Positions 26,844-63,361 of a stretch of 64,000 nt of DNA are shown here, in pieces. The DNA is taken from assembly GCF_030269305.1 (NCBI RefSeq), contig NZ_BSTC01000001.1, forward strand, positions 695,467 through 759,466, in the 5' to 3' direction. The notes under the pieces are model-generated. The model was not told where the DNA came from. It ran no database searches and worked only from the letters and a program-made list of their open reading frames with translations. The first letter of the stretch is position 1; the number at the start of each line of letters is the position of its first letter. The translations under genes and the position numbers were made by a program. The DNA is from Kineosporia sp. NBRC 101731 (GTDB lineage: Bacteria; Actinomycetota; Actinomycetes; Actinomycetales; Kineosporiaceae).

Positions 26844-29800
26844 ATGACGCTCCTGCATGGCGGTGGCGCCAAGGGCGCCGGAAGGCAGCGCGGCAATCGG
26901 CAACGTACCGCCGATGCCGATCCTGGTCCTGCCCTGCGCTCTCTCCTTCCGAGGAACGTCGAAGAGGACGAGTCCGCGCAGGAGCAGGTGACGACCGAGG
27001 CCGGTCTCGTCACCCGGACCCCACGGGGAGCTGAGGGAGAAGCTGGACGTGAGCACACCGAACAGCCCTCTGGGGGCTCGTCCGGTGTTGATCGTGACGC
27101 TGTTACCGCTGCGCGCCCAGATTCGGGTGATCTCACCTGGGCCGAGATGGTGAGCGGACGGTCGGGGGGCCGGCGGGGTGCGCGGTCCGTCCCGCGCCTG
27201 GAGATGGGAAGCAAGTACCGGTTGCAGTTCGGCCGCTCGGAGCAGGCTCGCTCCGAGGCCGGCCCCGTGACAGATCCGACCGTTCACCCTGGTGCGAATG
27301 TTGTTGCTGGTGAGGATGGTCGGGGTGGATCGGTGGTCGCGCCCGACCGGGCCGCGGACCATGCCGATTCGCCGGCTGACTCTGCCCCTGACGTGATGGA
27401 TGTGTCTGGTGGGCTCCATCACCGCGCTGGGCCGCGGGGTGGGGATCCGGCGGGTGGGGGATCGGGACGTGTGGGGCAGTCGCTGCCCAGGGCATCGACC
27501 GGATACCTACCGAATGACGCAGTCACTGCGGACGAGAACGACCACCGGAGCAGGACCGGCTCGGCCACCGAGGTCGGGCCTGGCGGAACGGATTTCGGGG
27601 ACATGAGTGGCTGGGGTGCCGCTGATGTGGGCCCGGGTGTGGCCGGGAACGGTGTGGCCGGGAACGGTGTGGCGGCTGACGGCCTGGCTGGGGCCGTTGA
27701 GGTCGGTGTCAGCCTGGCGGGCGCCGGTACGACGGGGCCTTCTCCGACCGGTGCTTCCGGAGACGGGTCTGTCTTCGATGGAGCGCCCTCGACCGCACCG
27801 CCTTCTGCCGAACTGCCCACGGACGCACGGCCGAGCGCCGCCACGGGGTCGCCGGCAGCTACTGAATCGTTCGCCGGGGCTGGATCTCACCCGGCCGCGG
27901 AACTGCGTTCGGGCGCGAATTTCCCTATCGCCGCTGATCTCCCCGCGCCCACTGATCTTCCCGCGCCCACTGATCTCCCCATCGTCACCGATCTACATGC
28001 CGCCACTGATCTACACGCCGCCGTTGACCTTCGGGCGGCTCCTGCATCACGCACCCTCACCGGCCCGAGTGTGGCCGGTGCGATGACGGCGAAGGTTGAC
28101 CATGTTCTCGCTCGCGATCACGCAGAAATTCCCGGTGGGGGTCTGCCTGATCACGAACGGGGTGATGGGGCGCTGCCGTCGAGCGTGGGCGGTCGCCGTA
28201 GTCGGGGATCGTGGGCAGAGAACGCATCGTCCACCGACCCGAGGCTTGATCTCTCCGGGCCGGGCGCGGGACTGCCCGCTGAGTCTGAACCGCACACCAT
28301 GACCGGATCGGATCCGGCCGGCCCGTCGCTTCCTGAATGGTCCTCTGACATCGATCCTTCCCGAGTCAACAAGTCAGCTGATCCGGAAGCGTCCAGCATT
28401 GACGAGTTGTCGGTGGTCGACGAACTGCCCGTGGTGGAAGACGCCGTGACCCTGGACGCGGCGCTGCACCGGATCGCGGATGCCGGGCCGACCTCAGCCG
28501 AGGTACTCCAGGAGCTGGTGCGCGACGCCGGTCTGCTGATGGACGCCCCGACGCGGATCGCCAGCGTCGTCAACGACCGGCTGATCTGGACGGCGGCCTA
28601 CGGTGACGAATCGGTCGAGCTGGGTTCTGAGGTTCTGCTGGAGAACACCGCCTGCGGGGCAGCCTGGGGGACAGCGCTGATCCAGCACGTGGCCGCCGTT
28701 GATCCGGAGAGCGATTCTGCTGGCGTCGAGCTGAATACCGAGTGCTGTGGTTCGGCGGCGGCGGTGCTGGCGGTTCCGTTGCTACGCGCGGCGCCGGCGG
28801 GATCAGGGCGGCACGCGAGCATCACCCGCGAAGTGCTGGCTGTGCTGGCCTTCACCGCGGACCGGCCGGGTTGGTTCACCGATGAGGACATCGAGGCCAC
28901 GGCCGATCTGGCCGAGGTGGCCGGTGAGCGGATCGCCACGCTCGAAGAGGATGAACTCGAAGAGGATGAAGACGACCTGGTCGCCCGCGGGGCCGCTGAG
29001 CCCGGGACGGCCGGACCGCAGGCGCGGCTGGAATCGTGGCTGGCGGAGCGGCAGCAGGCCGGGGGCGTCGCAGCCGAAGCGGTGCGCGAGCCGGCCGGCG
29101 AGGGTTTCGACCGGTGGTTCACGCCGAACGTGCCCAGCACTGCCTACGAGCCGGACAACCCGGCGGCATCAGCGGTTTTCGGTGCACTGGCGGCAGCCGA
29201 GGAGTCCGGGCCGGAGCGGGTCGTCGCATCGCCCGACGGTCGGCAGGACTATCGACACGATCCCTTCGGCCTGTTCACCCCGCAGCAGCGGGAGTACCAG
29301 GCCGAGTTCCAGAGCGATCCAGTCGAAGGTCAGAACGATGAGCGGGAAAGGGTTTCCGCGTTCGACCAGCTCTTCGACCAGGCCGCTTCCGACCGGCAAG
29401 ACGCTTCCGACCGATCGATCTCGACCGCCGGCACCTTCGACTGGAGCGATGATCAGTCTCTCGACGAGGCGCTGAACCCGGAGGACGACGTCGACGAGGA
29501 GGACACGTCGGCCGGTTCGATGCTCGGTGGGAGCGATCCGGAGGAAACATCTTCCGGTCCGTTCGGGATGTCGGTTCCGAGAGGCGAGCGTCGCGCCCGC
29601 CGGGAGCGTGACCGTGCGGCACACCTGGAGGACGAGGATCTCATCGGGCAGTCCGTCACCGGACAGCAGACTGAGGTGGGCCAGCCGGTCGAAGCGAGCC
29701 GGTTGACGGAGAGCACCGCCCATCGGTTGGTCGAACCCGTTCAGCAGGTGGACGCGGGTCGGCCCGGCGGACCAGGACCGGAACCGGGTGCCGGATCACC

Positions 29801-32800
29801 GGCCGGTGCCGAGGAGCGGTCTGAGACCGGCCAGCAGTTCGAGACCGGCCAGCAGTTCGAGCTTGGCCGGTCGACCGAGACCAGTGGATCCTCCGCAGCC
29901 GGGCCGCGCAGTGATGCCGTTGAACAGCGCAGCCTTGCCGAGGAACAGAGTTCGGTCGGCCAGTGGGTCGAGGCCCCGCGTCGTTCCATGGCCAGGCGCG
30001 CAGCCGAAGGCCGGCAACAGCGAGAAGCCCGGCAGCCGGATTCCGCCTCGCGGACGGGTGCCGGCCAGCAGCCGGAGGTCGGACAGCAGGTCGATGCAGG
30101 CTCGGTGTCGGGCTCGGTATCACCGTCCACGGCGACCGGACCGTTCTCGCCGGTGGCTCAGACATCGGCCGCCGACTGCCGGACGTCCACCGGCACCGGC
30201 CAGTTCGAGGCGGTCGAGGTCGATGACACCGGGGCTCTCGAGGTCGGGACCCTCGATGCCGGAAGCTTCGCCGCCGCGTCCACCGGGTCCATCGGGCCTG
30301 CCGGGTCCACCGAGCCTGCTGAGCGTTCTGAGGCGAAGGTGTCCGCGGCTGATGTCGTTGCGGCTGGTGACGAGGCCCCGGACGAGGTCTGGGTGCGTGA
30401 CCAGGTGCTCGATCTGAACACCGAGACCGCGGGTGAGGAACCGGGCTGGGCCGGTCAGAACACCAACCGGAGCATCGCCCCGACCGCCATCCACGCACGT
30501 CTGGCCGAGATGCGCGGAAACCCGCGAGTCGTCAATCGGGTCAACGGTTCTCCGGAGCTGCGTCAGGATCTTGGGCTTGAGCTGCTCACGCCTCCCACCG
30601 GCAGCCGGATGCCCCCGACCGGGGGAGGCCGGGGATCCGGCGCCGCACTGTTCGGGGGCTCTCTTCCTGTCGACGACCGGCGGATGCCGGGCCCGCGCAA
30701 CCGTCGTGAACGTCCACCATCGGGTTCGGCTCTGTCGATCTCGATGCCCTCGGCCGACAGCATGGGGCTGTGGCAGTGGGACGCCGTGAGCAACGCCGTG
30801 ACCTGGTCGTCGCCGGTGGCCCGTCTGCTGGGGATGCCCGCCGACGTGGAGCTGGACCTGGGCACCGTCCGGTCGGTGCTGGCGGGTGCCGATCGGGGCC
30901 GGTTCGACGTGGCGGTGCAGGCGATCCGCAGTGGCCGAGGCGTCGCCGGGGCACTGCGCCTGCGCACCCGGGACGGGCAGGCCAAGCACGCCTACGCCTG
31001 GAGCGAGGTGCGACGCGACGACAAGGGCAACCTGCTGGGGGCCTGGGGCGGCGTCGTCGACATCACCGCGTTCGAACGGGACGCCGATGCGCTGCGCTCC
31101 GGCCTGGCCGGGTTGCGGGCAGCGCAGGAACTGGCGGGTCTGGCCACCTGGGAATGGCGACCGGAGACCTCGGAACTCATCTGGTCGGACGAGATGTACC
31201 GCCTGGTGGGTGTTTCCGCGGAGAATTTCGATCCTGACCTGGACCGCTGGCATGCCTTCGTCCACCCCGACGACCTGGATCGGGCCCGCCGGGTGGACGT
31301 GGACCTCGACCCGCAGGGCTTTGAGGACGAGTGTGTCGAGACGTTCCGGCTGATCGGTACCGGCGGCGAGATCCGGCACGTGCAGTCGTGGGCGACGCCG
31401 GGACGGGCGCCCGACGGCACGATCACCGCGGTCTACGGTGCGACGATCGACGTGACCCGTCAGGTGCGCGACCGGATCGAGCTGGAGCGGGTCGCGGCCA
31501 CCGACCCGGTGACCGGGCTGGGCAATCGGGCCTCTTACGAGCGGAGGCTGCAGCTGCTGCTGCGGGCCACCGGACCGACCCCGGGTGCCAACGAGAATGC
31601 CCTCAGCGTGGTGCTTCTCGATCTCGACCGGTTCAAGGTCGTGAACGACAGCCTGGGTCACGAGACCGGTGACCGGCTGCTGATCGAGGTGGCCCGCCGC
31701 CTGGTCGCGGTGGTGCCGGACGGTTCGCTGATCGCCCGGATGAGCGGTGACGAGTTCGTGGTCGTGGTCCCGGCGGGCTGGTCGCAGGCCCGGGTGGTGG
31801 GCCTCGCCCAGACGATGCTGGAGGCCCTGCGGGCACCCTACGTGCTGCCGGGATCGGGTGAGGTGCTGATCTGCCCGGGCAGCGTGGGCATCTCGAGCAA
31901 CCGGGGGCGCCCGGGCTCGACCGGTGCCGACCTCCTGCGTGAGGCCGACATCGCCCTGCACCAGGCGAAGGATTCCGGTCGCGACGGCTATGCGGTGTTC
32001 GACGAGGCCCTGCGGGAAGGGGTGCGCGAGCGCCGCCGCACCGAGCAGCGGTTGCGGATGGCCCTGGCCGACCGGGGTCTGACCCTGGAGTACCAGCCGA
32101 TCATCAACCTGAGCACGAACCGGATCATCGGGGCGGAGGCGCTGGTGCGTCTTGTGGACCCGCAGGGCGGCGAGCATCTGCTGGCTCCCGGCCAGTTCCT
32201 CGACATTGCCGAGAAGACCGGCCTGATCGTGGAGGTCGATACCTGGGTGATCAACGAGGTGATCGCGCAACTGCGGTCGTGGTCGGAGAACGCGGAGGAT
32301 CTGCGGGCTGCTGATGCGCGGATCGGTGACCAGACAGGTCGGGGGCAGGTCACGCCGCCGTGGCTGGCGATCAACCTGTCGGCCCGTTCCACCGAGCACC
32401 CGGGCCTGGCGTTCCACCTGATCGACGCGGTGCGCCGGGGTGACTTCGGCCCGGAGAAGCTGAAGGTGGAGCTGACCGAGCAGGCGTTCGCCAACGCCGA
32501 CCCGGCGGTGGACCGAGCGCTGAAGGAGCTGATCTCGGCGGGGATCGGGGTCGGGATCGACGATTTCGGTTCGGGTCGGTCGGGTCTGGCCGGGCTGCAG
32601 CGGTACAGCTTCGACTTCATGAAGATCGACCGCTCGTTCGTCACGCCGGTCGGCGAGGACTCCCGCGCCGACGCGGTGGTGACAGCCATCGTCGATCTCG
32701 CCCACGCCCACGGGATGCGCGTGATCGCCGAGGGGGTGGAGTCCGGCCGGCAGGCGCGGCGCCTGCGGGAGATCGGCTGTGACTACGCGCAGGGTTATCA

Positions 32801-32843
32801 CTTCGGCAGACCCGGTGACGTTTCACGCATCATCCGCGGATAA
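26844..32843 (+). CDS. Giant GAF-PAS-PAS-GGDEF-EAL c-di-GMP signalling protein
   Basis: A 1999-residue soluble protein. Residues 1 to about 530 are disordered and repetitive. A GAF-like domain lies at about 535-705, a second disordered acidic and Gln/Thr-rich region at about 705-1300, then two PAS folds (about 1307-1412 and 1415-1545; WEWRPETSELIWSDEMYRLVG). GGDEF follows (about 1552-1715) and EAL (about 1732-1995). The GGDEF loop reads SGDEF (residues 1634-1638), which is active in some cyclases. The metal-binding LLDLDRFKVVNDSLGH is intact. The EAL domain keeps EALVR (from 1765), ELTE, DDFGSG, FMKIDRSF, EGVE and QGYHFGRP, so phosphodiesterase activity is expected. AAGGAGG fixes ATG 26844. 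There is no membrane span. The length is far above the family norm because of the linkers, which also contain a palindromic element (28113-28155). Confidence 0.88.
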   Translation: MTLLHGGGAKGAGRQRGNRQRTADADPGPALRSLLPRNVEEDESAQEQVTTEAGLVTRTPRGAEGEAGREHTEQPSGGSSGVDRDAVTAARPDSGDLTWAEMVSGRSGGRRGARSVPRLEMGSKYRLQFGRSEQARSEAGPVTDPTVHPGANVVAGEDGRGGSVVAPDRAADHADSPADSAPDVMDVSGGLHHRAGPRGGDPAGGGSGRVGQSLPRASTGYLPNDAVTADENDHRSRTGSATEVGPGGTDFGDMSGWGAADVGPGVAGNGVAGNGVAADGLAGAVEVGVSLAGAGTTGPSPTGASGDGSVFDGAPSTAPPSAELPTDARPSAATGSPAATESFAGAGSHPAAELRSGANFPIAADLPAPTDLPAPTDLPIVTDLHAATDLHAAVDLRAAPASRTLTGPSVAGAMTAKVDHVLARDHAEIPGGGLPDHERGDGALPSSVGGRRSRGSWAENASSTDPRLDLSGPGAGLPAESEPHTMTGSDPAGPSLPEWSSDIDPSRVNKSADPEASSIDELSVVDELPVVEDAVTLDAALHRIADAGPTSAEVLQELVRDAGLLMDAPTRIASVVNDRLIWTAAYGDESVELGSEVLLENTACGAAWGTALIQHVAAVDPESDSAGVELNTECCGSAAAVLAVPLLRAAPAGSGRHASITREVLAVLAFTADRPGWFTDEDIEATADLAEVAGERIATLEEDELEEDEDDLVARGAAEPGTAGPQARLESWLAERQQAGGVAAEAVREPAGEGFDRWFTPNVPSTAYEPDNPAASAVFGALAAAEESGPERVVASPDGRQDYRHDPFGLFTPQQREYQAEFQSDPVEGQNDERERVSAFDQLFDQAASDRQDASDRSISTAGTFDWSDDQSLDEALNPEDDVDEEDTSAGSMLGGSDPEETSSGPFGMSVPRGERRARRERDRAAHLEDEDLIGQSVTGQQTEVGQPVEASRLTESTAHRLVEPVQQVDAGRPGGPGPEPGAGSPAGAEERSETGQQFETGQQFELGRSTETSGSSAAGPRSDAVEQRSLAEEQSSVGQWVEAPRRSMARRAAEGRQQREARQPDSASRTGAGQQPEVGQQVDAGSVSGSVSPSTATGPFSPVAQTSAADCRTSTGTGQFEAVEVDDTGALEVGTLDAGSFAAASTGSIGPAGSTEPAERSEAKVSAADVVAAGDEAPDEVWVRDQVLDLNTETAGEEPGWAGQNTNRSIAPTAIHARLAEMRGNPRVVNRVNGSPELRQDLGLELLTPPTGSRMPPTGGGRGSGAALFGGSLPVDDRRMPGPRNRRERPPSGSALSISMPSADSMGLWQWDAVSNAVTWSSPVARLLGMPADVELDLGTVRSVLAGADRGRFDVAVQAIRSGRGVAGALRLRTRDGQAKHAYAWSEVRRDDKGNLLGAWGGVVDITAFERDADALRSGLAGLRAAQELAGLATWEWRPETSELIWSDEMYRLVGVSAENFDPDLDRWHAFVHPDDLDRARRVDVDLDPQGFEDECVETFRLIGTGGEIRHVQSWATPGRAPDGTITAVYGATIDVTRQVRDRIELERVAATDPVTGLGNRASYERRLQLLLRATGPTPGANENALSVVLLDLDRFKVVNDSLGHETGDRLLIEVARRLVAVVPDGSLIARMSGDEFVVVVPAGWSQARVVGLAQTMLEALRAPYVLPGSGEVLICPGSVGISSNRGRPGSTGADLLREADIALHQAKDSGRDGYAVFDEALREGVRERRRTEQRLRMALADRGLTLEYQPIINLSTNRIIGAEALVRLVDPQGGEHLLAPGQFLDIAEKTGLIVEVDTWVINEVIAQLRSWSENAEDLRAADARIGDQTGRGQVTPPWLAINLSARSTEHPGLAFHLIDAVRRGDFGPEKLKVELTEQAFANADPAVDRALKELISAGIGVGIDDFGSGRSGLAGLQRYSFDFMKIDRSFVTPVGEDSRADAVVTAIVDLAHAHGMRVIAEGVESGRQARRLREIGCDYAQGYHFGRPGDVSRIIRG
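27636..27674 (+). repeat. 15-bp tandem repeat in coding sequence
   Basis: GGTGTGGCCGGGAAC is present twice and in part a third time, encoding GVAGN units in the disordered N-terminal region of the GGDEF-EAL protein. Confidence 0.8.
27942..28031 (+). repeat. 18-bp tandem repeat in coding sequence
   Basis: Five 18-bp units encode the hexapeptide series PAPTDL, PAPTDL, PIVTDL, HAATDL and HAAVDL. The first two units differ at one base, the later ones have diverged, which suggests recent slippage growth of the linker. Confidence 0.85.
28113..28155 (+). repeat. Dispersed GATCA palindrome, copy A (inside a gene)
   Basis: Arms 28113-28126 and 28142-28155 pair at 12 of 14 positions around a 15-base loop. 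It belongs to the same family as 42641-42723, 44828-44881 and 62545-62608. It is translated in frame within the linker of the GGDEF-EAL protein as RDHAEIPGGGLPDHERG. Confidence 0.65.
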
Positions 32844-32985
32844 CCTCATCACCCTGCGCCCCGGGTGCACTCCGCATACCCTGTTCACCTGGGCAATCAA
32901 GGAGCAGCCGGGCGGTGCTCGCACTGTGGGCTTCCGTCGGTGGCGAACTGACGGGTGACGTGGTCGCGGGGAGGTATCGAGCGCG

Positions 32986-35115
32986 GTGTCGTGGTCGGCC
33001 TGGTTGGTCTGCGCTCTGGTGGCCGGCGGCGTCGGTTACCTGTCGCTGGCCGGGTTCGTCTGGGCCAATCGCCAGGGCATCGGCAGCCGCCCGCTGGTGG
33101 TCATGCTGCTCGCGGTCAAGGTCTGGTCGATCTGTTACGCCCTGGAGCTGAGCAGCACCTCCCCCGAGGTCGCCCAATGGTGGTCGGCGCTCAAGTACTT
33201 CGGCGTCGTGGCCCTGCCGCCGGCGCTGTGGAGCTTCGTCTTCGCCTACACCGGGCGTGGGCGGATGACACGAAGATCCACGATCCTGCTGACGATCCAC
33301 CCGGTCGTCATGATGACCCTCCTCCTGATGCCCGTGACGCGTCCTCTGATCCAGGACTATTCAGACACCAGCCGGGTGCTCAACGCCCAGGTGCCCGGAG
33401 CCGGTCCGCTGTTCTGGCCGCACGCGGTCTACGTCTACGTGCTGATGCTGGGCGCCGACTTCGTGCTGATGGCCCGCCTGACCAAGATCGCCCCGCCCTA
33501 CCGCCGCCAGGGCGCACTCCTGATCGCAGCGTCGTTGCTGCCCTGCTTCGGCAACGTGCTCTGGAACGCCGGCCTGTTCCGGGCCGGGATGGTCGACCCC
33601 ACGCCGTTCCTCTTCGGCATCACCGCGGTGGTGCTGGTCTGGGGCTTCTTCCGGCTGCGCCTGCTCGACCTCACGCCGGTCGCCCGCGGCATCGTGATCG
33701 AGCAGATGAACGACGGCGTGCTGGTGCTCGACGTGTACGGCCGGGTGGTCGACGCGAACGCCGCCGCGGCCTCGATCATCAGCTTCCCTCGCCGGGCCAT
33801 GATCGGCCGCTACGTGGTGGACGTGGTGCCCGGTCTGGCCACGGTGCTGGAGAAGCTGGAGGTCGGCTCGGCCGTCGACACGGTCGAGGACGAGGTGCTG
33901 ATCTACCCGGCTCCCGGCGCCGATACCGCCGAGGAGATCCTGCCCGGTTTCTGGGGAGGGCTCTTCACCCGGCCCGAGCCGGCCGGGCCCGAGAAACCAC
34001 TGCGTCTCACCGGGCGTCCGCTGAAGGTTGTGGACCGCGAGATCGACCGTCACACGGACCCTTCGGGGCTCCCGGGGCCCACCGGACAGGACCGGCACCG
34101 GGAGCGGACAGGGGAGCAGCTCGTCCTGGGGCCACCACGCGACGTAGCCGTCTCGATGACCTGGGTGACCGACCCGGTCGGCCGGCAGATCGCGCGGCTG
34201 GTGGTGCTGCGCGACGTGACCGAGCGCAACCGCACCGAGCGGCAACTGCGTGAGCTGCTGAACGAGCAGACCCGTCTGTCCGAGACCCTGCGCCAGAGTC
34301 TGCGTCCCGCGTCCTTGCCCCAGTTGCCCGCCCTGCGGTTCGCCGCCCGGTCGGTGCCCTCGGCGCGGGGCGAGGGTGTGGGTGGTGACTTCTACGACGT
34401 GCACCCGGCCGGCGGTGGTGAGTCCGCGTTCGTGCTCGGCGATGTCTCCGGCAAGGGGGTGCACGCGGCCGTGGTCACCTCGATGGCCCGCTACACCGTG
34501 CGCACCCTGAGCGCCCAGGGCTGGACCCCGAGCGAGGTGCTGCGGCAGCTCAACCGGGCTCTGCAGACCCCGGACGACCTGGAACGGTTCTGCACGGTGG
34601 TCTACGGGCTGGTCAACGATCCCGGGCCGGACGAGCGGCGGATCCGCGTGACGCTCAGCCTGGGTGGCCACCCACCGCCGCTGCTGCGACGGCACCGCGA
34701 CGGGTCGGTGCACACGGTCGGGCGTCCCGGCACGGCACTGGGGCTGCTGCCGTCGGTGGACATTCACGAGGTGGTGGTCGATCTCGAAGCAGGGGACGTC
34801 CTGCTCGCCTACACGGACGGGGTCACCGAGGCGCGGGTCGGCGACGAGCAGTTCGGTGAGAAACGTCTGGCCGAGGTGCTGGCGGCCGTGCCCCGCGGCA
34901 TCGGCCCGGCCTGGCCGTCGCCGGCCTGGCGGCGTGAACACCCCGAGTACGAGCGCAATCCGTGGACCGACCAGGCCGGCCAGAGCGAGCAGGGCGGGCC
35001 CGGTCATCCGGCGACCCAGCTGGCCGATGCCGTCGCGGATTCCGTGCTGGCCGCGGTGCGGTCGTTCGCGCCGGAACGCGACGACGTGGCGCTTCTGGTG
35101 CTGGCGGCGACTTAG
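32986..35115 (+). CDS. 7TM-PAS-PP2C (SpoIIE-like) membrane phosphatase
   Basis: A 709-residue protein. Residues 1-230 hold seven membrane spans resembling the histidine-kinase N-terminal 7TM sensor region (SLAGFVWANRQGIGS, WWSALKYFGVVALPPALWSF). A PAS-like domain follows (about 238-420, MNDGVLVLDVYGRVVDANAAA), with an internal Pro/Gly/Arg linker. The C-terminal PP2C-type phosphatase domain (about 450-709) has the metal-binding GVGGDFYDV and VLGDVSGKGVHAA, then LSLGGHPPPLL and AYTDGVTEAR. Such proteins dephosphorylate anti-anti-sigma (STAS) proteins in partner-switching pathways. None is encoded nearby. GTG 32986 has GGGAGG upstream. It follows the GGDEF-EAL gene by 142 bases. Confidence 0.88.
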   Translation: MSWSAWLVCALVAGGVGYLSLAGFVWANRQGIGSRPLVVMLLAVKVWSICYALELSSTSPEVAQWWSALKYFGVVALPPALWSFVFAYTGRGRMTRRSTILLTIHPVVMMTLLLMPVTRPLIQDYSDTSRVLNAQVPGAGPLFWPHAVYVYVLMLGADFVLMARLTKIAPPYRRQGALLIAASLLPCFGNVLWNAGLFRAGMVDPTPFLFGITAVVLVWGFFRLRLLDLTPVARGIVIEQMNDGVLVLDVYGRVVDANAAAASIISFPRRAMIGRYVVDVVPGLATVLEKLEVGSAVDTVEDEVLIYPAPGADTAEEILPGFWGGLFTRPEPAGPEKPLRLTGRPLKVVDREIDRHTDPSGLPGPTGQDRHRERTGEQLVLGPPRDVAVSMTWVTDPVGRQIARLVVLRDVTERNRTERQLRELLNEQTRLSETLRQSLRPASLPQLPALRFAARSVPSARGEGVGGDFYDVHPAGGGESAFVLGDVSGKGVHAAVVTSMARYTVRTLSAQGWTPSEVLRQLNRALQTPDDLERFCTVVYGLVNDPGPDERRIRVTLSLGGHPPPLLRRHRDGSVHTVGRPGTALGLLPSVDIHEVVVDLEAGDVLLAYTDGVTEARVGDEQFGEKRLAEVLAAVPRGIGPAWPSPAWRREHPEYERNPWTDQAGQSEQGGPGHPATQLADAVADSVLAAVRSFAPERDDVALLVLAAT

Positions 35116-35194
35116 GGCGCGTTTTGGAAGTCCATGCCTACTGCGGGGCACCCGGTGGCCGCCTGGCGGCACCGACTTCCAAAACACGCCCTAA
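35112..35194. terminator. Long palindrome carrying both stop codons
   Basis: 21-base arms (35112-35132 and 35174-35194) pair at all but one position around a 41-base loop. The TAG stop of the phosphatase gene and the TAG stop of the convergent kinase gene both lie inside the arms. It probably acts as a bidirectional terminator. Confidence 0.75.
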
Positions 35195-36843
35195 GGCCGG
35201 ATGACCGGGATTCCCTTGGGTTGCGTGACCGCGTCCACCGGGATGTCCGTAGGCGGCAGCGCCGCGTAGGGCTCGTCGTCCATCGGCTCGTAGAGGTCTT
35301 CGGGTGGCTCGGCCGGCAACCGCACCGAGAAACAGGTGCGGCCGGGCTGACTGGTCACGTCGACCTGACCCTCGTGGGCGAGCACCACGGCCGACACGAT
35401 GGACAGCCCCAGGCCGGTGCTGCCCGCCGTTCGTGAACGCGAGTTGTCGCCGCGGGCGAACCGGTTGAACACCTCGGGCAGCAGATCGGGCGCGATGCCC
35501 GGCCCGTTGTCGGTGATCGTGAGCAGGGCCACGGGAGCGCCCTGTTCGCTGGTCACCATCCGTAGCGCGGCCTCCACGACGGTGCCGGGAGGGGTGTGCA
35601 CCCGGGCGTTGGCCATCAGGTTCACCACCACCTGGTGCAGCTGCGCCTCGTCACCGGTCACCACGACCGGTACGTCCGGCAGATTCAGTTGCCAACGGTG
35701 GGTGGGTCCGGCCGCGTGCGCGTCGCTGACGGTGTTGACCAGCAGATCCGTGAGATCGACCGGGTCCTTGGCGGTGGGCCGGCCCTCGTCCAGCCGGGCG
35801 AGCAGTAACAGCTCCTCCACCAGTCCGCTCATCCGGATCGCCTCGGACTCCACCCGGCTCAGCGAATGCGCGACCTCGGGCGGGACGTGCTGCCCGGTAC
35901 GGCGGGTGAGTTCGGCGTAACCGCGGATCGAGGCCAGCGGGGTGCGCAGCTCATGACTGGCATCGGCCACGAACCGGCGCATCCGGGCCTCGCTGGCGTT
36001 ACGCGCCTGCAGGGCGTTGTCGACGTGGCCCAGCAGCGTGTTCAGGGCAGACCCGACCTGTCCGACCTCGGTGGCCGGATCGGTGTCCTGCTCCGGAACC
36101 CGGGTGGGGAGAGCGGTCTTGCCCTCGTGCAGGGGCAGTTCCTTGACGCCGGAGGCCACTTCGGCCAGCCGGTTGAGCGGCCGCAGGGTACGTCGCACGA
36201 TCAGCCCACCGACGAAGGCGACCGTGAGCAGCCCGAAGATGCTCACCGCGATGACCGCGGCGGTCAGGCGCCACACCGCGGCCTGCACCGAACTCAGGGG
36301 CAGACCGGTGACCAGGGTGACGTCCTCGCCGTCGCGCTGGATCACCAGACCGATCACCCGGTACTTGCCCAGGTCGTCGCCGAGATCCACGGTGTGGGGC
36401 CGGCGGTCGGCGGGAACTGTGCTGACGACGGTCTGCTGGGCGCCGGTCAGCGCCACCCTCTCACCGGTGGCGTTGAGAACGGCGGCGACGCTGACCGTTC
36501 CGTCGGCCTTGATCTCCGCGCCGAGCGTGTCCTCACCCTGGCCGGGAGCGTTCAGGAAGCCGGGACCAGGCCCGGTGACGTTCGACGGCCGGTTCTCGGA
36601 CGGAGACCGGCCGGCGAATTCACGGGAACGCCGCACCGCGGAGGTGAGCTGGTTGTCCAGCCGCTCCTCCAGGAACACCTGCAGCGAGAACACGGCGACC
36701 AGGCCGATGACGATGCTGATCGTCGCGGTGAGGGCGATCGACAGCAGGACCAGGCGCCGACGCAGCGTGGTGCGCCCTCTACGCCCCCTGAGCGAGGGCT
36801 TCGCGTCGGCGTGCCTGGACCTGCGGGAGCTGACCGACCTCAT
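35191..36843 (-). CDS. OmpR-system sensor histidine kinase
   Basis: Membrane sensor kinase of 550 residues. Two spans (about 31-53 and 193-215) flank an extracytoplasmic domain of about 140 residues. HAMP follows (RRTLRPLNRLAEVASGV), then HisKA with phospho-acceptor His297 in FVADASHELRTPLASIRGY, and HATPase_c with N box NLMANARVH, G1 DNGPGIA and G2 GSTGLGLSI. The C-terminal tail is Pro/Asp-rich. The gene is downstream of its response regulator on the same strand with 15 bases between. The pair diverges from a MacAB-like efflux operon and probably controls it, as in antibiotic or envelope-stress systems. Confidence 0.9.
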   Translation of the reverse strand: MRSVSSRRSRHADAKPSLRGRRGRTTLRRRLVLLSIALTATISIVIGLVAVFSLQVFLEERLDNQLTSAVRRSREFAGRSPSENRPSNVTGPGPGFLNAPGQGEDTLGAEIKADGTVSVAAVLNATGERVALTGAQQTVVSTVPADRRPHTVDLGDDLGKYRVIGLVIQRDGEDVTLVTGLPLSSVQAAVWRLTAAVIAVSIFGLLTVAFVGGLIVRRTLRPLNRLAEVASGVKELPLHEGKTALPTRVPEQDTDPATEVGQVGSALNTLLGHVDNALQARNASEARMRRFVADASHELRTPLASIRGYAELTRRTGQHVPPEVAHSLSRVESEAIRMSGLVEELLLLARLDEGRPTAKDPVDLTDLLVNTVSDAHAAGPTHRWQLNLPDVPVVVTGDEAQLHQVVVNLMANARVHTPPGTVVEAALRMVTSEQGAPVALLTITDNGPGIAPDLLPEVFNRFARGDNSRSRTAGSTGLGLSIVSAVVLAHEGQVDVTSQPGRTCFSVRLPAEPPEDLYEPMDDEPYAALPPTDIPVDAVTQPKGIPVIRP

Positions 36844-36858
36844 CCGTAGGGGATCGGG

Positions 36859-37581
36859 TCAGGCGGCGGCGGGTTTGAGCACGTAGCCCGCACCGCGCAC
36901 CGTGTGGATCATCGGGGGACGACCTGCGTCGATCTTCTTACGCAGGTAGGAGATGTACAGCTCGACCACGTTGGCCTGGCCGCCGAAGTCGTAGTTCCAC
37001 ACCCGGTCGAGAATCTGGGCCTTGCTCAGTACCCGCCGCGGATTGCGCATCAGGTACCGCAGCAGCTCGAACTCGGTGGCCGTCAGCTTCACCGTGGCCC
37101 CGTCGCGGGAGACCTCGTGGCTGTCCTCGTCGAGGATCAGGTCCCCGACCGTCAGCTGCGCGTCCGGCGGCTGGGCGGCCAGGCTGGTGCGGCGGATCAG
37201 CCCACGCAGCCGGGCCACCACCTCTTCCAGGCTGAAGGGCTTGGTCACGTAGTCATCGCCACCGGCGGTGATACCGGCGATGCGGTCCTCCACCGAGTCG
37301 CGGGCGGTGAGGAAAAGAACCGGGATGTCCCGGTCGTCCTCGCGGAGACGACGAAGCACGTTGAGACCGTCGATGTCGGGCAGCATCACATCGAGCACGA
37401 CGGCGTCGGGGCGCCAGTCGCGAGCCTCCTTGACGGCGGTGTTGCCGTCGGGAGCGGAACGGACCTGCCAGCCCTCGTAACGCAGAGCCATGGTCAGCAG
37501 GTCGGTGAGAGTGCGTTCATCGTCCACCACAAGCACGCGAACGGGCGCGCCGTTGGGGTGGCGTAGGGGGGCGGTCGTCAC
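36859..37581 (-). CDS. OmpR-family response regulator
   Basis: Response regulator of 240 residues. The receiver domain has the acidic pair VVDDERT, phospho-acceptor Asp64 in VVLDVMLPDIDG, LTAR and the conserved Lys in YVTKPFSLEE. The C-terminal winged helix has the OmpR pattern KLTATEFELLRYLMRNPRRVLSKAQIL, then VELYISYLRKKID and HTVRGAGYVL. I place the start at GTG 37581 (VTTAPLRHPNG); no strong ribosome site precedes it, and the longer frame to 37788 is not family-like. CTGTGA direct repeats 46 bases upstream (37627-37643) are a likely binding site for this regulator. Confidence 0.88.
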   Translation of the reverse strand: MTTAPLRHPNGAPVRVLVVDDERTLTDLLTMALRYEGWQVRSAPDGNTAVKEARDWRPDAVVLDVMLPDIDGLNVLRRLREDDRDIPVLFLTARDSVEDRIAGITAGGDDYVTKPFSLEEVVARLRGLIRRTSLAAQPPDAQLTVGDLILDEDSHEVSRDGATVKLTATEFELLRYLMRNPRRVLSKAQILDRVWNYDFGGQANVVELYISYLRKKIDAGRPPMIHTVRGAGYVLKPAAA

Positions 37582-37626
37582 AGGAATCAAGCTGGTCGCC
37601 AAAGCTGAACGACAGCCCCCGTATAT

Positions 37627-42622: not shown

Positions 42623-42640
42623 CAACCCCGCTCCACCCTT

Positions 42641-42723
42641 CGTGATCATGCAAAGTGTCCCCGGCGTTCTAGAACTCTGGCACTGAGAGTTCTAGAAGTG
42701 CGGGGACACTTTGCATGATCACG
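42641..42723. repeat. Dispersed GATCA palindrome, copy B (intergenic, terminator-like)
   Basis: The outer arms (42641-42662 and 42702-42723) are 22 bp and perfect. An inner 12-bp perfect stem (42667-42678 with 42686-42697) is nested within. The 83-base hairpin lies between convergent genes and probably terminates both transcripts. Confidence 0.85.
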
Positions 42724-42758
42724 GCAATGATTTTGTGGGGCTCGGCCGCCCCGAGGGT

Positions 42759-44827: not shown

Positions 44828-44881
44828 CAGTTCGTGATCATGCGAACTTTCCCCGGGAAAAGTCCGCATGATCACGAACTG
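44828..44881. repeat. Dispersed GATCA palindrome, copy C (intergenic, terminator-like)
   Basis: Arms 44828-44848 and 44861-44881 pair at 20 of 21 positions. The middle TTTCCCCGGGAAAA extends the pairing, and a T-rich stretch (GGTTTTCTTTT) follows. It lies between the convergent serA and photolyase genes. Confidence 0.85.
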
Positions 44882-55500: not shown

Positions 55501-55533
55501 CGTTACTCCAACGCTTCCCGGGGCACATCAATT

Positions 55534-57192: not shown

Positions 57193-57455
57193 CGGCTGAA
57201 GCTCCTCATGGGTGGGGGGATTCGAGACTAGTTCGCGCATCGTCGCCGGACCAGGTTTTACGCCTGTGGCGCACACCCGAGAACGTCGCGCAGAGTGGGA
57301 ATTGCTCACTCGCGGTTCGTTACGTGAACCGTTACGTGATGTGACCCGCTTTGCCCTCCTGGGCGCGGGCGTGCTCGACTAGTCTCTAGGGCTTGTATGG
57401 GCCTGGTCCGTTCTGGCGCGTTCCGGGCCATGACCTGAACCGACAGGAGTACCGC

Positions 57456-59318
57456 GTGACCGACTGGGACCCTTCTGCCGTGGCCGCCGCGCTGCGTACG
57501 GAGAACCGGTTCTCCGGGGGCTCGGTGGTCGGGGTGCTGGCGATCGGTCACTCCCAGACCCGGATGTGGGTGCTGGAGTCCGAGTCACTGCTGGAAGACG
57601 CGTCTGTCCACGGTGGCGGCCGGGTGTCCGGCAACCCCGCCATCCTCGCCGAGAGCCGGCTCGACGACCTCGGCGGCGAACTGTTCGACCGGATGCTGTT
57701 CGAGCGTGCGACCGAACGGATCACCGAGGTGCCGGGGGCGGACGACGCCTTGGTCGGCCGGCTGCGCGAACCTGCCGGTGAGCCCTGGCGTGGGCTGCAG
57801 CAGCGGCTCTTCCTGCAGGTTCGCCGCGCTCGCGAGGAACTCACCGCCTGGCACAGCGCCACGGTCGAGATCGACGACATCCCCGGCATCACCCCGGACG
57901 GTCCGCTGCGGCTCGACCGCATCGAGCTCGACAACGCCCTGCGCCCGCACGTGCTGCAGATGGCGCGCACCCTGCAGTCCACGATCGAGTCGTCGGGCCA
58001 TCGCCCGGCCACGCTGGACGGCATCTACCTGCTCGGCGACGCGCGCATGCCGCTGATCGTGCGCTCGGTCTATGACGTGCTCGGGGTCAGCCCGACGATG
58101 CTGGGCCAGGACCCGTCCGCCGCCCCCGGCCTGTCCAAGGCCGCCACGCGCACCGCCGCCGGGCGCCCGGTTCCCGGCCCGGGGCAGCCGGCCTCACCGG
58201 CCGACGGGCTGAGCCTGCGGTCCACCCCGAAGGCGAAGGGCAAGAACGGCAAGGTCGTAGCCGGCCTGAGGACGACCTCCGCACCCGTCGATGTCGAGTC
58301 GCCTCCGTCGACGGAGATGTCCGGGAACTGCCTGACCCCGGGCAAGAACGTCGAGGCGGTCCGGCCCGATCCGGAGCTCACCGACACCGGGTCGCTACGC
58401 CTGCTCGGTCACCCGGGTGACGGGTTCGACGTCGAGGCCGCGAGCGTCGGCTCGGCGCAGAAGAACCGTCGTCGCCTGCTGGTGCCGGCCGCCGGGGGTG
58501 CGGTCGTGATGGTGGCCGCCTCCCTGATCGTCGCGGGGCTGGTGCACAACAACACGCTGCCGACCCCGACGAAGACCGAACGGGTGCAGGCGGCCTCGGC
58601 GACCATCACGCCCACCACGCCCCCGGCCACGCCGTCCGTCCTGCCTCCGGTGGAGAGCCTGCGGGCCCGCCCGGTCGGCATCTCGATCACCCTGAACTGG
58701 GCCGAGGTGCCCGGGGCCGAGCAGTACTCGGTGTACCGCGACCAGGGCACGAAGGCCGAGGAGGTGCGCACGGCGACCGTCCCCCAGCTGACCGACCGGC
58801 CCGGTGACGGCCGCGTGCACACCTACACGGTGGTGGCGCTGGACGCCGACGAGGTCGAGGGTGAGCCCGGTGAAGCGGTCGCGGCGAAGGCCGCCACGCC
58901 GTACGGCAAGCTGCAGAACATCGCCAGCGCCTGGACCGGCATCGTGCCCGCCCGGCCTGGTCTCAAGGGCAGCTCCGGCCAGATCTGCCGGGCGAAACCG
59001 GGCAAGGCCGCGGGCGCGGCCGGGAGCATCGTCTGCCGGTACCCGGGCAAGCTCACGGTCACGGTGTTCACCTACAGCTCCGAGGCCGCGACCGGCCGCC
59101 GGTACAAGGTCCTGCGCGCGATGAAGGGCGTTGCCAGCGGTGGCTGGAAGGCCGACGGCGACACCGGGCGGTTGCTCGTCGGGGGCCCTCGGAACGCGCC
59201 GTGGCGCTGGTGGACCTACGAGTCCTCGCCGACCACCGTGGTGCAGGCGAACTGGCCGGGCCACACCTCCGCCCAGCTCGCCACCTGGGCGAAGAAGCGG
59301 ATGCCCTTCCACCGCTGA
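57456..59318 (+). CDS. Hsp70-like domain / membrane span / FN3 protein
   Basis: A 620-residue protein of unusual architecture. Residues 1 to about 220 resemble the second half of an Hsp70/actin-like ATPase domain (RLDDLGGELFDRMLFERATERI, LFLQVRRAREELTAWHSATVEID, LDGIYLLGDARMPLIVRSVYDVLG), without the N-terminal phosphate-1 loop. A Pro/Gly linker leads to one membrane span (about 347-370, LLVPAAGGAVVMVAASLIVAGLV). The outer part has an FN3 domain (about 400-480, ISITLNWAEVPGAEQYSVYRD) and a C-terminal domain with two Cys (GQICRAK, SIVCRYPG). GTG 57456 has AGGAG. Function unknown: it may couple cell-surface sensing to a chaperone-like partner. Confidence 0.75.
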   Translation: MTDWDPSAVAAALRTENRFSGGSVVGVLAIGHSQTRMWVLESESLLEDASVHGGGRVSGNPAILAESRLDDLGGELFDRMLFERATERITEVPGADDALVGRLREPAGEPWRGLQQRLFLQVRRAREELTAWHSATVEIDDIPGITPDGPLRLDRIELDNALRPHVLQMARTLQSTIESSGHRPATLDGIYLLGDARMPLIVRSVYDVLGVSPTMLGQDPSAAPGLSKAATRTAAGRPVPGPGQPASPADGLSLRSTPKAKGKNGKVVAGLRTTSAPVDVESPPSTEMSGNCLTPGKNVEAVRPDPELTDTGSLRLLGHPGDGFDVEAASVGSAQKNRRRLLVPAAGGAVVMVAASLIVAGLVHNNTLPTPTKTERVQAASATITPTTPPATPSVLPPVESLRARPVGISITLNWAEVPGAEQYSVYRDQGTKAEEVRTATVPQLTDRPGDGRVHTYTVVALDADEVEGEPGEAVAAKAATPYGKLQNIASAWTGIVPARPGLKGSSGQICRAKPGKAAGAAGSIVCRYPGKLTVTVFTYSSEAATGRRYKVLRAMKGVASGGWKADGDTGRLLVGGPRNAPWRWWTYESSPTTVVQANWPGHTSAQLATWAKKRMPFHR

Positions 59319-59493
59319 GGCGGCCCGGGGCACGACCGTTCGTCGCGGCGGACCACGGGGGAGGGCATTCGGGTGAGCCGGGACCGACGATCTTGGGTGG
59401 GTACGCCGCCGAGTCGATCTTGCGTCCATGGACTGGGGTCAACCTCGGGTGCGGCCTTGCCTCATGGGCATGCTGGAATCCGGAGAGGGAACA

Positions 59494-61008
59494 GTGGATG
59501 CCCGGATCCAGCACGCCCTGGACGTGCTGGTGGAAGAGCTCGGGGTGGACACCGCGTTCGTGAACCGGTTCCGGCGGGGTCTGTGTCACATCACCCACCG
59601 GTCAGGGCTTCCGCTGGCTGACGAGCTGCAGGCACCCAAGACGGTGGACAGCACGATCTGCCGGCTGGTCGCGGCCGGGGAACTGGAAGCGCTGGTCCCC
59701 GACACCGGGGTGCATCCGGTCCTGGCGGGTCATCCCGACGTCCGACGGATCGGCATCACCTCCTACGCCGGCGTTCCGCTGGTGGTCGACGGGGACATCG
59801 TGGGCGCGGTGTGTGCGGTCGCGGCAGACCCGGTGCCGGGCTGGAGCGACCGGGATGCCGACCGGCTGGCCACCGTCGGGGAGTTCATCGGCCGGGTCCT
59901 GACCTCCGCCGAACGGCCCGGGCCGAGTGATTCCGGGGGATCCGGCACCCACGAAGCCGGGGCGGCCGGGGCGCCGTTGCCGGATCTGGCCGACCTGGCG
60001 CAGACAGTGGCCGGCAGTCGTGACCTGGAGTCGCTGACCCGGCCCCTGCTGGAAGTTCTGCAGTCCAGCACCGGGCTGGAGTCGACCTACCTGACGTTCG
60101 TGGACTGGGTCGGTGACCGGCAGCAGATCGTGTACTCGCTCAACGTCGGTGAACTCGACATCCCGGAAGGGCTGACCGTGCCGTGGAGCGACACCCTGTG
60201 CCAGAGGTCCCTGGACGCCGGAATCCCTTACACCGCTGATGTTCCCTCATTGTGGGGGGACAGCGAGGCGGCTAGGCAGCTGGGGATCCGCACCTACGTC
60301 AGCGTGCCGATCACCGATGCCGACCAGGCCGTCATCGGCACCCTGTGCGGAGCCGGTACCGCCAGTGTCGACCTGCAGAAGCAGCACCTGGGCACCATGC
60401 AGCTGTTCTCCCGGGTCCTGGCCGAGGAGATCAGCCGGGAACGGGCCGAGCACCGCGAGCGGGCCCGGGCCGAAGCACTGGCCCAGCGCACCCGTTCACT
60501 CTGGCGCGAGGACACGGTCGACGCCCTGACCGGGTTGCACAACCGGACCGGGATCCAGGAGTGGCTCACCACGGCGATCGAGACCCTGGAGACGGGCCGT
60601 GAGCAGCTGGCGATCGCGTTCTTCGACATCGACGACCTCACCACGGTCAACGACGTCTACGGCTCCGAGATCGGCGACGACGTCCTGCGCTGCCTGGCGG
60701 CCGCGCTGAGGAACGCCGGACGCCCGGGCGATCTGCAGGGGCGCTGGGGCGGCGACGAGTTCGTCGCCGCAGCCGTTCTCGCACCCAGCGACGCCTCGTT
60801 CGGGAACTGGACCCACCAACAGCAGATGGCCGCCAAATGGTTCTACCAGACGCCTGACCGATTCACCGGCCCTCATCAGACGGGCGGACATACGGTCCAC
60901 GCGTCCCTCGGCGCCATCACGGTCGTCGAGACGGCCACCAGCCCCGAACACGCCCTGCAGGTGGCCGAGCAGGCCATGAGCCGGCACAAGGCCCGTAGCT
61001 CGGCCTAA
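59494..61008 (+). CDS. GAF-GAF-GGDEF diguanylate cyclase
   Basis: Cytoplasmic protein of 504 residues. The first GAF (about 5-140, AFVNRFRRGLCHITHRSG, ITSYAGVPLVVDGDIVGAVCAVA) and the second GAF (about 170-320, LGIRTYVSVPITDADQAVIGTLCGAG) precede a GGDEF domain (about 345-504). The catalytic loop is an intact GGDEF (RWGGDEFVAAA), with the metal site FFDIDDLTTVNDVYG and the LTGLHNRTGI start motif. It should make c-di-GMP; there is no RxxD inhibitory site immediately before the loop. GTG 59494 is preferred because GGAGAGGG precedes it; ATG 59428 or 59470 would add a short N-terminus. Confidence 0.9.
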   Translation: MDARIQHALDVLVEELGVDTAFVNRFRRGLCHITHRSGLPLADELQAPKTVDSTICRLVAAGELEALVPDTGVHPVLAGHPDVRRIGITSYAGVPLVVDGDIVGAVCAVAADPVPGWSDRDADRLATVGEFIGRVLTSAERPGPSDSGGSGTHEAGAAGAPLPDLADLAQTVAGSRDLESLTRPLLEVLQSSTGLESTYLTFVDWVGDRQQIVYSLNVGELDIPEGLTVPWSDTLCQRSLDAGIPYTADVPSLWGDSEAARQLGIRTYVSVPITDADQAVIGTLCGAGTASVDLQKQHLGTMQLFSRVLAEEISRERAEHRERARAEALAQRTRSLWREDTVDALTGLHNRTGIQEWLTTAIETLETGREQLAIAFFDIDDLTTVNDVYGSEIGDDVLRCLAAALRNAGRPGDLQGRWGGDEFVAAAVLAPSDASFGNWTHQQQMAAKWFYQTPDRFTGPHQTGGHTVHASLGAITVVETATSPEHALQVAEQAMSRHKARSSA

Positions 61009-61051
61009 GGACTAGGTGTACTGCTATGGCGTGTGGACCTTCTCGACATGC

Positions 61052-63361
61052 TCACCGGATGTGCAGTTCCTCGAAGAGGAGAGACGCCAGAGCTCGGGCG
61101 TACGCGCCGGTGATGTGGTTGTCGTCGCGGTAGACCAGGGTGTTGCCGACCACCACCGGGCAGCTGGTGGCCGTGCAGAACCAGGGCGCGGGGTCGACCA
61201 CCCGGGCGCTCGCCGACCGCACGGCCCGGGCGATGGCGGTGCGCTGCGGTGTTCCGGTCGCCCGGTCGGACGCCTGGGCACAGGCCTGAATGTTCCTCGG
61301 GTTCTGCGAGAGGCACTCGGGCACATCGGTCTTCGCCCTCGGGGAATCGGCCAGGAAGGCCACGTCGGTGCCCCCGGCGAGCAGCGTCGAGACGGTCCTG
61401 GCCCAGCCCGTGGCCCAGGTGGCGTCCACGTCGGAGGCTGATCCGACCAGGTCGAGGTGGTCGGCGATCGAGGTCGTCACCACCAGGTCCGGTTTCAGCG
61501 CGTGGATGCGGGCGATGCTGTTCGCCCGCCAGGTGTTGCAGGTGCGGTAGTCGCCCCGGAAGGTCTCGGCGTAGACGTGCACCTGTGCGGGGGTGCACAT
61601 CACCTTGGTGAAGACGGCCAGGCGCCAACGGTTTTCGCGAGCCAGGGCGTTCAGGGCCGGGTACCACTGCGCGGCGTGCGAGTCGCCGAAGAGCACCACG
61701 GTCTTCCGGGGCCGGGCGCTGCCGAGCGACTCGCAGCGTTTGGGCGTGCGGGTAGCGGCCACGGCCACGAAGCAGCCGTTGCCGGAGATCGCGGGCTCGT
61801 CGCCCGAGGCCTTCTGGAGTGAGGGCTCCAGGTTGCGGGGGAGAACCGTGACGCGGGTGGCGGTGTCCAGTCGTCGGGCCAGCTGCTGGTGCCGTTGTGA
61901 GGGTGGTCCCTGCAGGTTCAGGCCCGCGGCCAGTCCTTCGCCCTGCGTCTGCCGGGCAGGCAGGGCCGGGGCCAGCACGGCGAGGGCGACGGTGACGGCG
62001 GTCAGGGCGGCGGCGAGAACCCCGGCCTGCCAGGGCCGTGCCCGTAACTGCTCGTGGTGCCGCAGCGGCTGCTCGACCAGGGTATACCCGGCGCAGGCCA
62101 GGCCCAGTGCCACCAGGGCAACGAGAAGTTTTTCATAGGTGCTGATCTCGCGCTCCAGGAGATAGGGCGCGATGATCAGGGCGGGCCAGTGCCAGAGGTA
62201 GATCGAGTACGACCGGGCCCCGACGAACTGCAGCAACGGCAGGGACAGCACCCGTCCGGGTCCGGCCCGGCCGGCGATGATCACGGCCACGGTGCCCAGC
62301 ACCGGGATCGCCGCGGACCATCCCGGGAACGGCGTTGAGCTGTCGAAAGTAACCGCGGCATAAGCAATAGCGCTCAGTCCACCCCAGCGCAGAGCGACCG
62401 CACCCCGGCCCAGGGCGCGGGCGGCCCGGCCCGAGACGTCGGCGACCTGGCCCGGGACGTCGGCGGCCCGGCCTGCGGTGTCGGTGACCCGGCCCGGTGC
62501 CGCCGTGACCGTGTGCCCCCGAGGTGCGCCCCTCGTCCCCTGTTCGTGATCAGGCAAACCTTCCCCGCCGACCGTTCCGGAACTCGGGGGAGTTTTTGCC
62601 TGATCACGCAAGAGCTGGGGGATGACCAGGGCCAGGAGAGCTCCGGCGCCCAGTTCCCAGACCCGGGTCGGTGCGCCGAAATAGGCTGCCACCGAATCCG
62701 TCTGACTGGTCACCAGGGAGTCGGCGAACGAGAGGGCGATCAGGGTCGTGAGCAGGGCCGCGAAGGCCGCCCGGCGTCGCAGCAGCACCAGGCAGACCAG
62801 GGCAAGCAGGGGGATGGCGAGGTAGAACTGCTCCTCGACCGCCAGCGACCAGAAATGCTGCAGCGGGGAGGGGGAGGCACCGGCCGAGCGGTAGTCGTTT
62901 CCGACCTGGATCAGGCGCACGTTGAGCACATAACCGGCCGAGGCCACGGCGTCCCAGGCGATGGCCCGCAGGCGCAGCGGCGGCAGCCAGATCCAGGCGG
63001 CGGCCAGGGTGCACACCAGCACCAGGCTCGCGGCCGGCAGCAGGCGCAGTGCCCGCAGTGCGTAGAAACGGCCGATCCGTAACCGTCCGGTGTCCGCGAC
63101 CTCGCGCGCCAGGTGTGAGGTGATGAGAAACCCGGAGATCACGAAGAAGACGTCCACCCCGACGTAGCCGCCGGTGAAAGTCTTTATCCCACAGTGGTAG
63201 AGCACCACCAGCAGAACGGCCAGGGCGCGCAGGCCCTCGATGTCCGTACGGAAGCCCGGGCGGGGCGCGGGTCTCACGTCGTCCGTCGTGGTGATCCGCA
63301 ACCCTCGCGCCGGGACCGCTTCGATCTCGACATTGCTCACCCGGTTCGGATCGGCACCCAC
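61052..63361 (-). CDS. Acyltransferase-3/SGNH membrane protein (OafA-like)
   Basis: A 769-residue membrane protein of the OafA/YrhL type. The acyltransferase-3 domain (about 38-430, FRTDIEGLRALAVLLVVLYHCG, GVDVFFVISGFLITSHLARE, QHFWSLAVEEQFYLAIPL) has about ten spans. The C-terminal SGNH-like domain lies outside (about 520-769), with the catalytic block LFGDSHAAQWYPALNAL and DDNHITGAYARAL. Such proteins acetylate or otherwise acylate cell-surface sugars. A loop of about 70 residues between two spans (around residues 250-325) is not in the family and contains a palindromic element and a 21-bp tandem repeat. The GTG at 63361 is used; GTG 63340 is an alternative. Confidence 0.88.
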   Translation of the reverse strand: MGADPNRVSNVEIEAVPARGLRITTTDDVRPAPRPGFRTDIEGLRALAVLLVVLYHCGIKTFTGGYVGVDVFFVISGFLITSHLAREVADTGRLRIGRFYALRALRLLPAASLVLVCTLAAAWIWLPPLRLRAIAWDAVASAGYVLNVRLIQVGNDYRSAGASPSPLQHFWSLAVEEQFYLAIPLLALVCLVLLRRRAAFAALLTTLIALSFADSLVTSQTDSVAAYFGAPTRVWELGAGALLALVIPQLLRDQAKTPPSSGTVGGEGLPDHEQGTRGAPRGHTVTAAPGRVTDTAGRAADVPGQVADVSGRAARALGRGAVALRWGGLSAIAYAAVTFDSSTPFPGWSAAIPVLGTVAVIIAGRAGPGRVLSLPLLQFVGARSYSIYLWHWPALIIAPYLLEREISTYEKLLVALVALGLACAGYTLVEQPLRHHEQLRARPWQAGVLAAALTAVTVALAVLAPALPARQTQGEGLAAGLNLQGPPSQRHQQLARRLDTATRVTVLPRNLEPSLQKASGDEPAISGNGCFVAVAATRTPKRCESLGSARPRKTVVLFGDSHAAQWYPALNALARENRWRLAVFTKVMCTPAQVHVYAETFRGDYRTCNTWRANSIARIHALKPDLVVTTSIADHLDLVGSASDVDATWATGWARTVSTLLAGGTDVAFLADSPRAKTDVPECLSQNPRNIQACAQASDRATGTPQRTAIARAVRSASARVVDPAPWFCTATSCPVVVGNTLVYRDDNHITGAYARALASLLFEELHIR
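62421..62504 (-). repeat. 21-bp tandem repeat in coding sequence
   Basis: Four diverged 21-bp units encode the 7-residue series GRVTDTA, GRAADVP, GQVADVS and GRAARAL in the inserted loop of the acyltransferase. Confidence 0.8.
62545..62608 (-). repeat. Dispersed GATCA palindrome, copy D (inside a gene)
   Basis: A perfect 14-bp outer stem (62545-62558 with 62595-62608) encloses an inner palindrome GTTCCGGAAC (62574-62583). It is translated in frame in the acyltransferase as RDQAKTPPSSG...GLPDHEQG, close to the copy A peptide. Confidence 0.8.

Follow-up and report, generated by a model that had tools for sequence, protein, structure and literature searches.

The window analysed here, a stretch of 64,000 nucleotides at C1:695467-759466 of the Kineosporia sp. 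NBRC 101731 genome (G000), holds four copies of a palindromic element, two of them inside genes and two between convergent genes. Copy A (28111..28157, plus strand, 47 bp) is translated in the N-terminal linker (RDHAEIPGGGLPDHER) of a PAS-GGDEF-EAL protein encoded at 26844..32843 on the plus strand, and has a counterpart in the sister genome G002. This gene begins with the start MTLLHG[GS]GA at window position 26844, found in all five congeners read, and because the conserved start lies upstream of A the copy is placed inside the gene. Copy D (62543..62610, minus strand, 68 bp) is translated in a loop (RDQAKTPPSSGTVGGEGLPDHEQ) of a 769-residue Acyl_transf_3 plus SGNH protein encoded at 61052..63361 on the minus strand. 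Both remaining copies lie between convergent gene ends, B (42639..42725) being of an 87-bp type with two GTTCTAGAA cores and C (44831..44878) of a 48-bp type. An inverted repeat of different sequence, with 42-nt arms at 79%, also occurs between convergent gene ends, at 35111-35195.

A first-pass annotation had put A in the GGDEF-EAL gene and D in the acyltransferase gene as translated members of one palindrome family, and the peptides it gave are those recovered here (RDHAEIPGGGLPDHERG for A and RDQAKTPPSSGTVGGEGLPDHEQG for D). The common family was borne out when the genome was scanned for further copies, as had been proposed, and many more were found: the core CGTGATCAKGC occurs at 573 sites in the 8.26-Mb genome and GCCTGATCACG 119 times, the reversed-pattern control being 0 in each case. 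Inverted arm pairs numbered 64 in C1:1-1,600,000, against none in the identical sequence read backwards, and a sample of 70 paired copies was drawn from 2.0 Mb (C1 plus part of C2). Three sizes, 48, 87 and 116 bp, are the most frequent, with 16, 18 and 11 of the 70 copies falling in these classes and 25 elsewhere. The 48-bp form consists of TTCGTGATCATGCAAAACCTCCCC and its complement in a perfect or near-perfect palindrome, the 87-bp form has an extra centre with two GTTCTAGAAC palindromes, and the 116-bp form has in addition a 29-bp piece in one arm, the B module, which is itself a hairpin, always nested at the same point of the arm. Paired GTTCTAGAAC palindromes were also seen without outer arms at C1:11044 and 11066. 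By inspection the arms start with TTCGTGATCAKGC, and they show neither of the end tags, GTAG or CGTC, that mark one end of the REP families in the part of PMC3733652 available. The 11-bp core is common to several families of the order.

Comparison with G002 gives some indication of how these forms arose. Five B-bearing G000 copies (C1:598209, 636054, 638932, 663294 and 805854; four of 110-116 bp and one of 93 bp) have the 87-bp form at the orthologous G002 sites, and none of 26 G002 copies in 360 kb exceeds 88 bp, 13 of them measuring 87-88 bp; a weak B-module match with 6 mismatches was found in G002 contig C45. Most likely, therefore, the B module was added in the G000 lineage, within elements that already existed. 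The copy at C1:808257 is absent at its G002 counterpart, the flanks of that at C1:904407 were not located in G002, and a clean empty site was not seen for any dispersed palindrome.

About 0.8 Mb from the window, on the same contig, there is a cassette (C1 about 1543641-1544830; loci L108 and L321) in which one complete gene lies between two 116-type half-elements, these being exact, unpartnered B-module halves that face each other across it. The gene (C1:1543791-1544750) encodes a nuclease-like protein of 319 residues, for which Pfam returned AbiEi_4 (1.6e-7) together with the MTES_1575 restriction endonuclease (7.5e-7) and AbiEi_1 (0.0013), the latter two below cut-offs, and PADLOC returned AbiEi (9e-19). 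MTES_1575 is a Vsr-type restriction endonuclease according to the part of PMC3710099 available. Residues D243, E254 and D256 are invariant in six aligned members and are the putative catalytic residues, and the architecture as a whole suggests a protein suited both to binding inverted repeats and to cutting.

A search of ten genomes yielded 34 homologue matches, of which seven were close (E 4.5e-72 or better), one each in G000, G002, G013 and G034 and three in G027. All seven close homologues are flanked left and right by the arms, inverted relative to each other, a layout shared by none of the 23 distant homologues with a locus (of 27 distant) and seen at only 7 of 4000 places picked at random in G000. 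There is a single arm per side in the two Kineosporia genomes and there are 2-5 in the other close-homologue genomes; at one close member, L330, a contig end truncates the locus and the arms, missed in the flanking-repeat scan, were placed by a later arm search. When four arm clusters were picked by coordinates alone, one, in G016, held a homologue (E 3.7e-122) between four and three arms. The other three (L352, L354 and L355) were rejected as nuclease loci, no nuclease gene being found in them; L354 (G034 C18:214801-216700) has inverted arms separated by about 1 kb, and no nuclease was found in between.

Where they could be read, the arms beside the gene match those dispersed through the same genome. 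The arm tag of the G016 gene, CACGTTCGCCC, recurs in all three dispersed G016 places read, and that of the G034 gene, CACGCCAG, in most of the dispersed G034 places read, L369 carrying CACGGCAG. The G000 gene has 116-type (B-module) arms and the 116 class accounts for 11 of 70 G000 copies; the G002 gene has 87-type arms and the 116 class for 0 of 26. The two Kineosporia proteins are identical at 294 of 319 residues (dN 0.041, dS 0.227) and the G002 cassette is inverted relative to the same flanks. In G004 the site is empty: in the alignment the ends of the two neighbouring genes are separated by 16 bp and there is no cassette, against a distance of 1238 bp in G000. The close nuclease gene is single-copy in both G000 and G002, and thus does not look self-spreading.

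The number of palindromes and the presence of the gene are not tightly correlated. Core sites number 573, 556, 295, 114 and 70 in five genomes with close homologues, and 23, 55, 71 and 41 in G001, G003, G004 and G005 respectively; in G007, which is without a close homologue, there are 161. In G016 the gene is accompanied by only 40 core sites (9.5 per Mb, against 8.8 in G004 and 6.7 in G003, which are without it), so the gene does not require a palindrome-rich genome.

The explanation that we favour, and regard as probable, is that the palindromes are non-autonomous REPIN- or MITE-like repeats belonging to a small element that is mobile (or homing), the full version of which consists of two palindrome halves with, between them, the gene that encodes the AbiEi-like plus Vsr-like PD-(D/E)XK nuclease. 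Bacterial palindromic repeats are usually attributed to RAYT-type tyrosine transposases, or no agent is named. A RAYT was rejected as the agent in this case, since Y1_Tnp (PF01797) had no match in G000 or G002; among the nine genomes searched it was likewise without a match in G001, G003, G004, G007, G013 and G034, and had one in G005. A plasmid or phage origin was also rejected. The 87-bp form had no DNA match, tblastn with the nuclease returned no phage and five weak plasmid-collection records at 26-37% identity, and none of 48 pattern matches in viral contigs was a relative.

Genes called with a simple gene finder take up 0.845 of C1 and, in the part of C2 read, 0.815 of the sequence, yet just 3 of the 70 paired copies in 2.0 Mb lie within genes: D and a copy in an IcmF gene by the gene finder (2 of 64 in C1), and A by its conserved start. 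Open 5' extensions of called genes contain six C1 copies, A among them, and the other five were excluded from the in-gene count. As many as 44 of the 64 C1 copies are within 60 bp of the 3' end of a gene, compared with 16% of random intergenic positions, and only four are near a 5' end alone. Among the 61 of 64 C1 copies that could be placed, 28 fall in 108 convergent gaps and 8 in 228 divergent gaps. The hairpins fold strongly (median -49 kcal/mol for 70 copies), and at some orthologous sites, such as C1:785598, both arms have changed together. A run of at least four Ts follows within 15 nt of 10 of 64 gene-directed hairpin ends, compared with 11 of 775 control places, and on the strength of this excess some copies may terminate transcription.

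The proximity to 3' ends, the crowding into convergent gaps, the strong folding, the covarying arms and the T-runs all favour a rival explanation in which the palindromes are purely functional hairpins, either terminators or 3'-end RNA stabilisers under selection, and the nuclease gene merely happens to lie between two of them. The T-run count and the low density of sites in G016 give more weight to the terminator alternative and less to the idea of the nuclease as source. We nevertheless think it unlikely that selection on hairpins is the whole explanation, as 54 of the 64 ends have no T-run, one 11-bp core is common to several families of the order, the arm arrays to the left and right of the nuclease gene are oppositely oriented, the arm tags are common to the gene and the dispersed copies, the cassette site can be empty and some copies are within coding regions. 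AbiEi proteins bind inverted repeats, and this, together with the AbiEi-like N-terminal region, would suit a second alternative in which the protein acts in repression or defence and its regulon of binding sites is made up of the dispersed palindromes. The sites follow stop codons and are not at promoters (four of the 64 lie near a 5' end only), a binding site needs no palindrome of 48-116 bp and the in-gene copies would go unexplained, all of which makes a regulon very improbable.

Of the in-gene copies, D is present in the G002 orthologue and absent in four congeners (G001, G003, G004 and G005). A peptide counterpart of A is present in G002 and none was found in the four other congeners, although in these the linker does not align and the absence at A is therefore weaker evidence than that at D. 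The IcmF copy (C1:825813-825860, 48 bp, 24-bp arms differing at one position) reads SVIMQNLPGEVLHDHE, with SVIRQNLPGEVSPDHE as the G002 counterpart; the insert is absent in G001, G003, G004, G005 and G009, and alignment to the solved IcmF structure 4xc6 leaves a 12-residue gap at the insertion point. Between G000 and G002 the IcmF insert differs in 5 of 16 codons (2 synonymous) and its 60-codon flanks in 21 and 18. The A, D and IcmF copies are all shared with G002, and they predate the split of the two sister species.

There are also traces of the element in ABC proteins. A double ATPase (C1:510398-511918) has an eroded piece, GEVLHDHERG, in a variable linker, which is absent in G002 and four congeners, and a second ATPase (C1:539186-540925) has tandem LPDHGRG-like units in a linker that is longer than in G001, the element-derived GE..PDHGRG units being tandemly expanded at C1:540034-540157. 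The peptide class [LSV][PH]DH[EGQ][RQH], picked after the peptides had been seen, has 8 matches in called open frames, a count that none of the 719 other class orders reaches (mean over all orders 0.89), and these include one probably untranslated 5' extension, one from the G002 IcmF and two in one ABC protein.

The recurrence of nearly the same peptide had been pointed out, and whilst A and D do share a frame and a peptide as described, the sharing is mostly forced by TGA in the arms. Worked out from the sequence, each arm has a TGA in one of three frames, such that elements with the arms TTCGTGATCA and TGATCACGAA have two stop-free frames if their length is 2 mod 3 and one if it is 0 or 1 mod 3. 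Those of 0 mod 3 are open only as FVIxQ...LxDHE, those of 1 mod 3 only as RDxA...CLIT and those of 2 mod 3 in two ways; A (47) and D (68) are 2 mod 3 and the IcmF copy (48) is 0 mod 3. Since the arm stops leave just one or two frames, the recurring peptide needs no common function, and the shared frame was rejected as strong evidence. Coding was likewise rejected as the main function: a six-frame search with the 48-bp-type peptide gave 137 genome matches, and none was convincingly in a gene among those inspected (12 loci at 11 places, with a further 7 and 1); L305 is in an open frame that precedes a probable start and at L297 there is overlap with the 3' end of a called gene.

Comparison of orthologues across the genus, which had been suggested as a check, found the D and IcmF inserts missing from congeners other than G002, in keeping with the proposal that A and D occupy loops or linkers absent from the families; the case holds for D and is weaker for A. 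That insertion is tolerated in unrelated proteins stands for linkers with uninserted orthologues, the in-gene copies being exceptional at 3 of 70, and the emphasis on coding by analogy with the Rickettsia palindromic elements was not upheld, given the gene coverage and the concentration near 3' ends. Selfish DNA of that Rickettsia type, with in-frame insertion as its main feature and spread by an agent unrelated to the nuclease, would account for D and IcmF in frame with uninserted orthologues and for A in frame, and is the least probable of the three alternatives because so few paired copies are in genes and because of the association with the nuclease. It looks as though a REP/REPIN-like element has, on rare occasions, inserted in frame and been tolerated. 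As translated intragenic palindromes are reported from other bacteria in the parts of PMC3733652 and PMC10969869 available, the in-frame copies are fresh instances of an already known phenomenon.

A REPIN-like family linked to an AbiEi-Vsr nuclease, and not to a tyrosine transposase, is the parsimonious account, and mobilisation might proceed as follows. The AbiEi-like N-terminal module would bind the inverted arms and the nuclease domain would cut the hairpin or an arm; repair or re-insertion would then spread or convert copies, mostly into the permissive stretches that follow stop codons, in which the hairpins could double as terminators. The rare copy within a gene would survive only if a stop-free frame fits and the peptide lands in a linker.

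A wider pattern is hinted at by the distant homologues, six of the 23 being flanked by other inverted repeats with a score of 25 or more. Five of these (L331 from G034, L339 from G013, L326, L340 and L344) compare with shuffled maxima of 14 or less at all loci, and the sixth, L333, scores 30 in a wider window against a shuffled maximum of 11; the three in G007 (L326, L340 and L333) each lie between two full hairpins. L338 and L350 score 18 and 20, six more exceed the shuffles by at most 4 and nine of the 23 have nothing above the shuffles. It may be that actinobacterial AbiEi-Vsr nucleases spread palindromes in general, as an enzyme class that has so far gone unrecognised. Every subfamily would then lie between hairpin repeats of a family of its own and propagate or convert them without HUH chemistry, now and then giving a host protein a new peptide linker; we consider the case for and against this to be evenly balanced.

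The closest parallel is with the REP/REPIN-RAYT systems. As far as the available parts of PMC3116915 and PMC3733652 go, these too comprise hairpin-forming inverted doublets in hundreds of copies beside the 3' ends of convergent or codirectional genes (the latter source placing REPs of other bacteria after stop codons), with a single-copy enzyme gene adjoining the same repeats and, in some species, translated intragenic copies; RAYTs, like the Kineosporia nuclease gene, do not look self-spreading. The enzyme is different, a RAYT being a Y1/HUH tyrosine transposase and the Kineosporia protein AbiEi-like plus Vsr-like PD-(D/E)XK, and so is the setting, the Kineosporia-type family being actinobacterial and the main text of PMC3733652, as far as available, containing none of the actinobacterial terms searched for. 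The Rickettsia palindromic elements, in the part of PMC10969869 available, resemble the family in that palindromic DNA is translated in frame in unrelated proteins, but in Kineosporia the copies inside genes amount to a few per cent and there is an associated nuclease gene. As in prokaryotic MITEs, little separates the inverted arms at the two ends and there is a related form that bears a gene, here the cassette, but the Kineosporia element is without a recognised transposase and no target-site duplication was evident by eye, either at the cassette or where G002 is without a copy. DUF559/MTES_1575 Vsr-like nucleases and AbiEi antitoxins are alike in domain content and differ in that no association with dispersed palindromes was seen among the literature matches listed. 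No title among those listed matches ties palindromes to AbiEi, DUF559 or MTES_1575 proteins, and the nuclease link is the part of these results without precedent among them.

The copies in IcmF, the acyltransferase and the GGDEF-EAL protein provide natural examples of protein segments born from a DNA repeat. More broadly, a palindrome family is here tied, across several families of one order, to an enzyme type that is not a RAYT, and the link between arms and nuclease offers a testable candidate for the spread of such repeats, besides suggesting what a group of nuclease-like proteins of unknown function may do.
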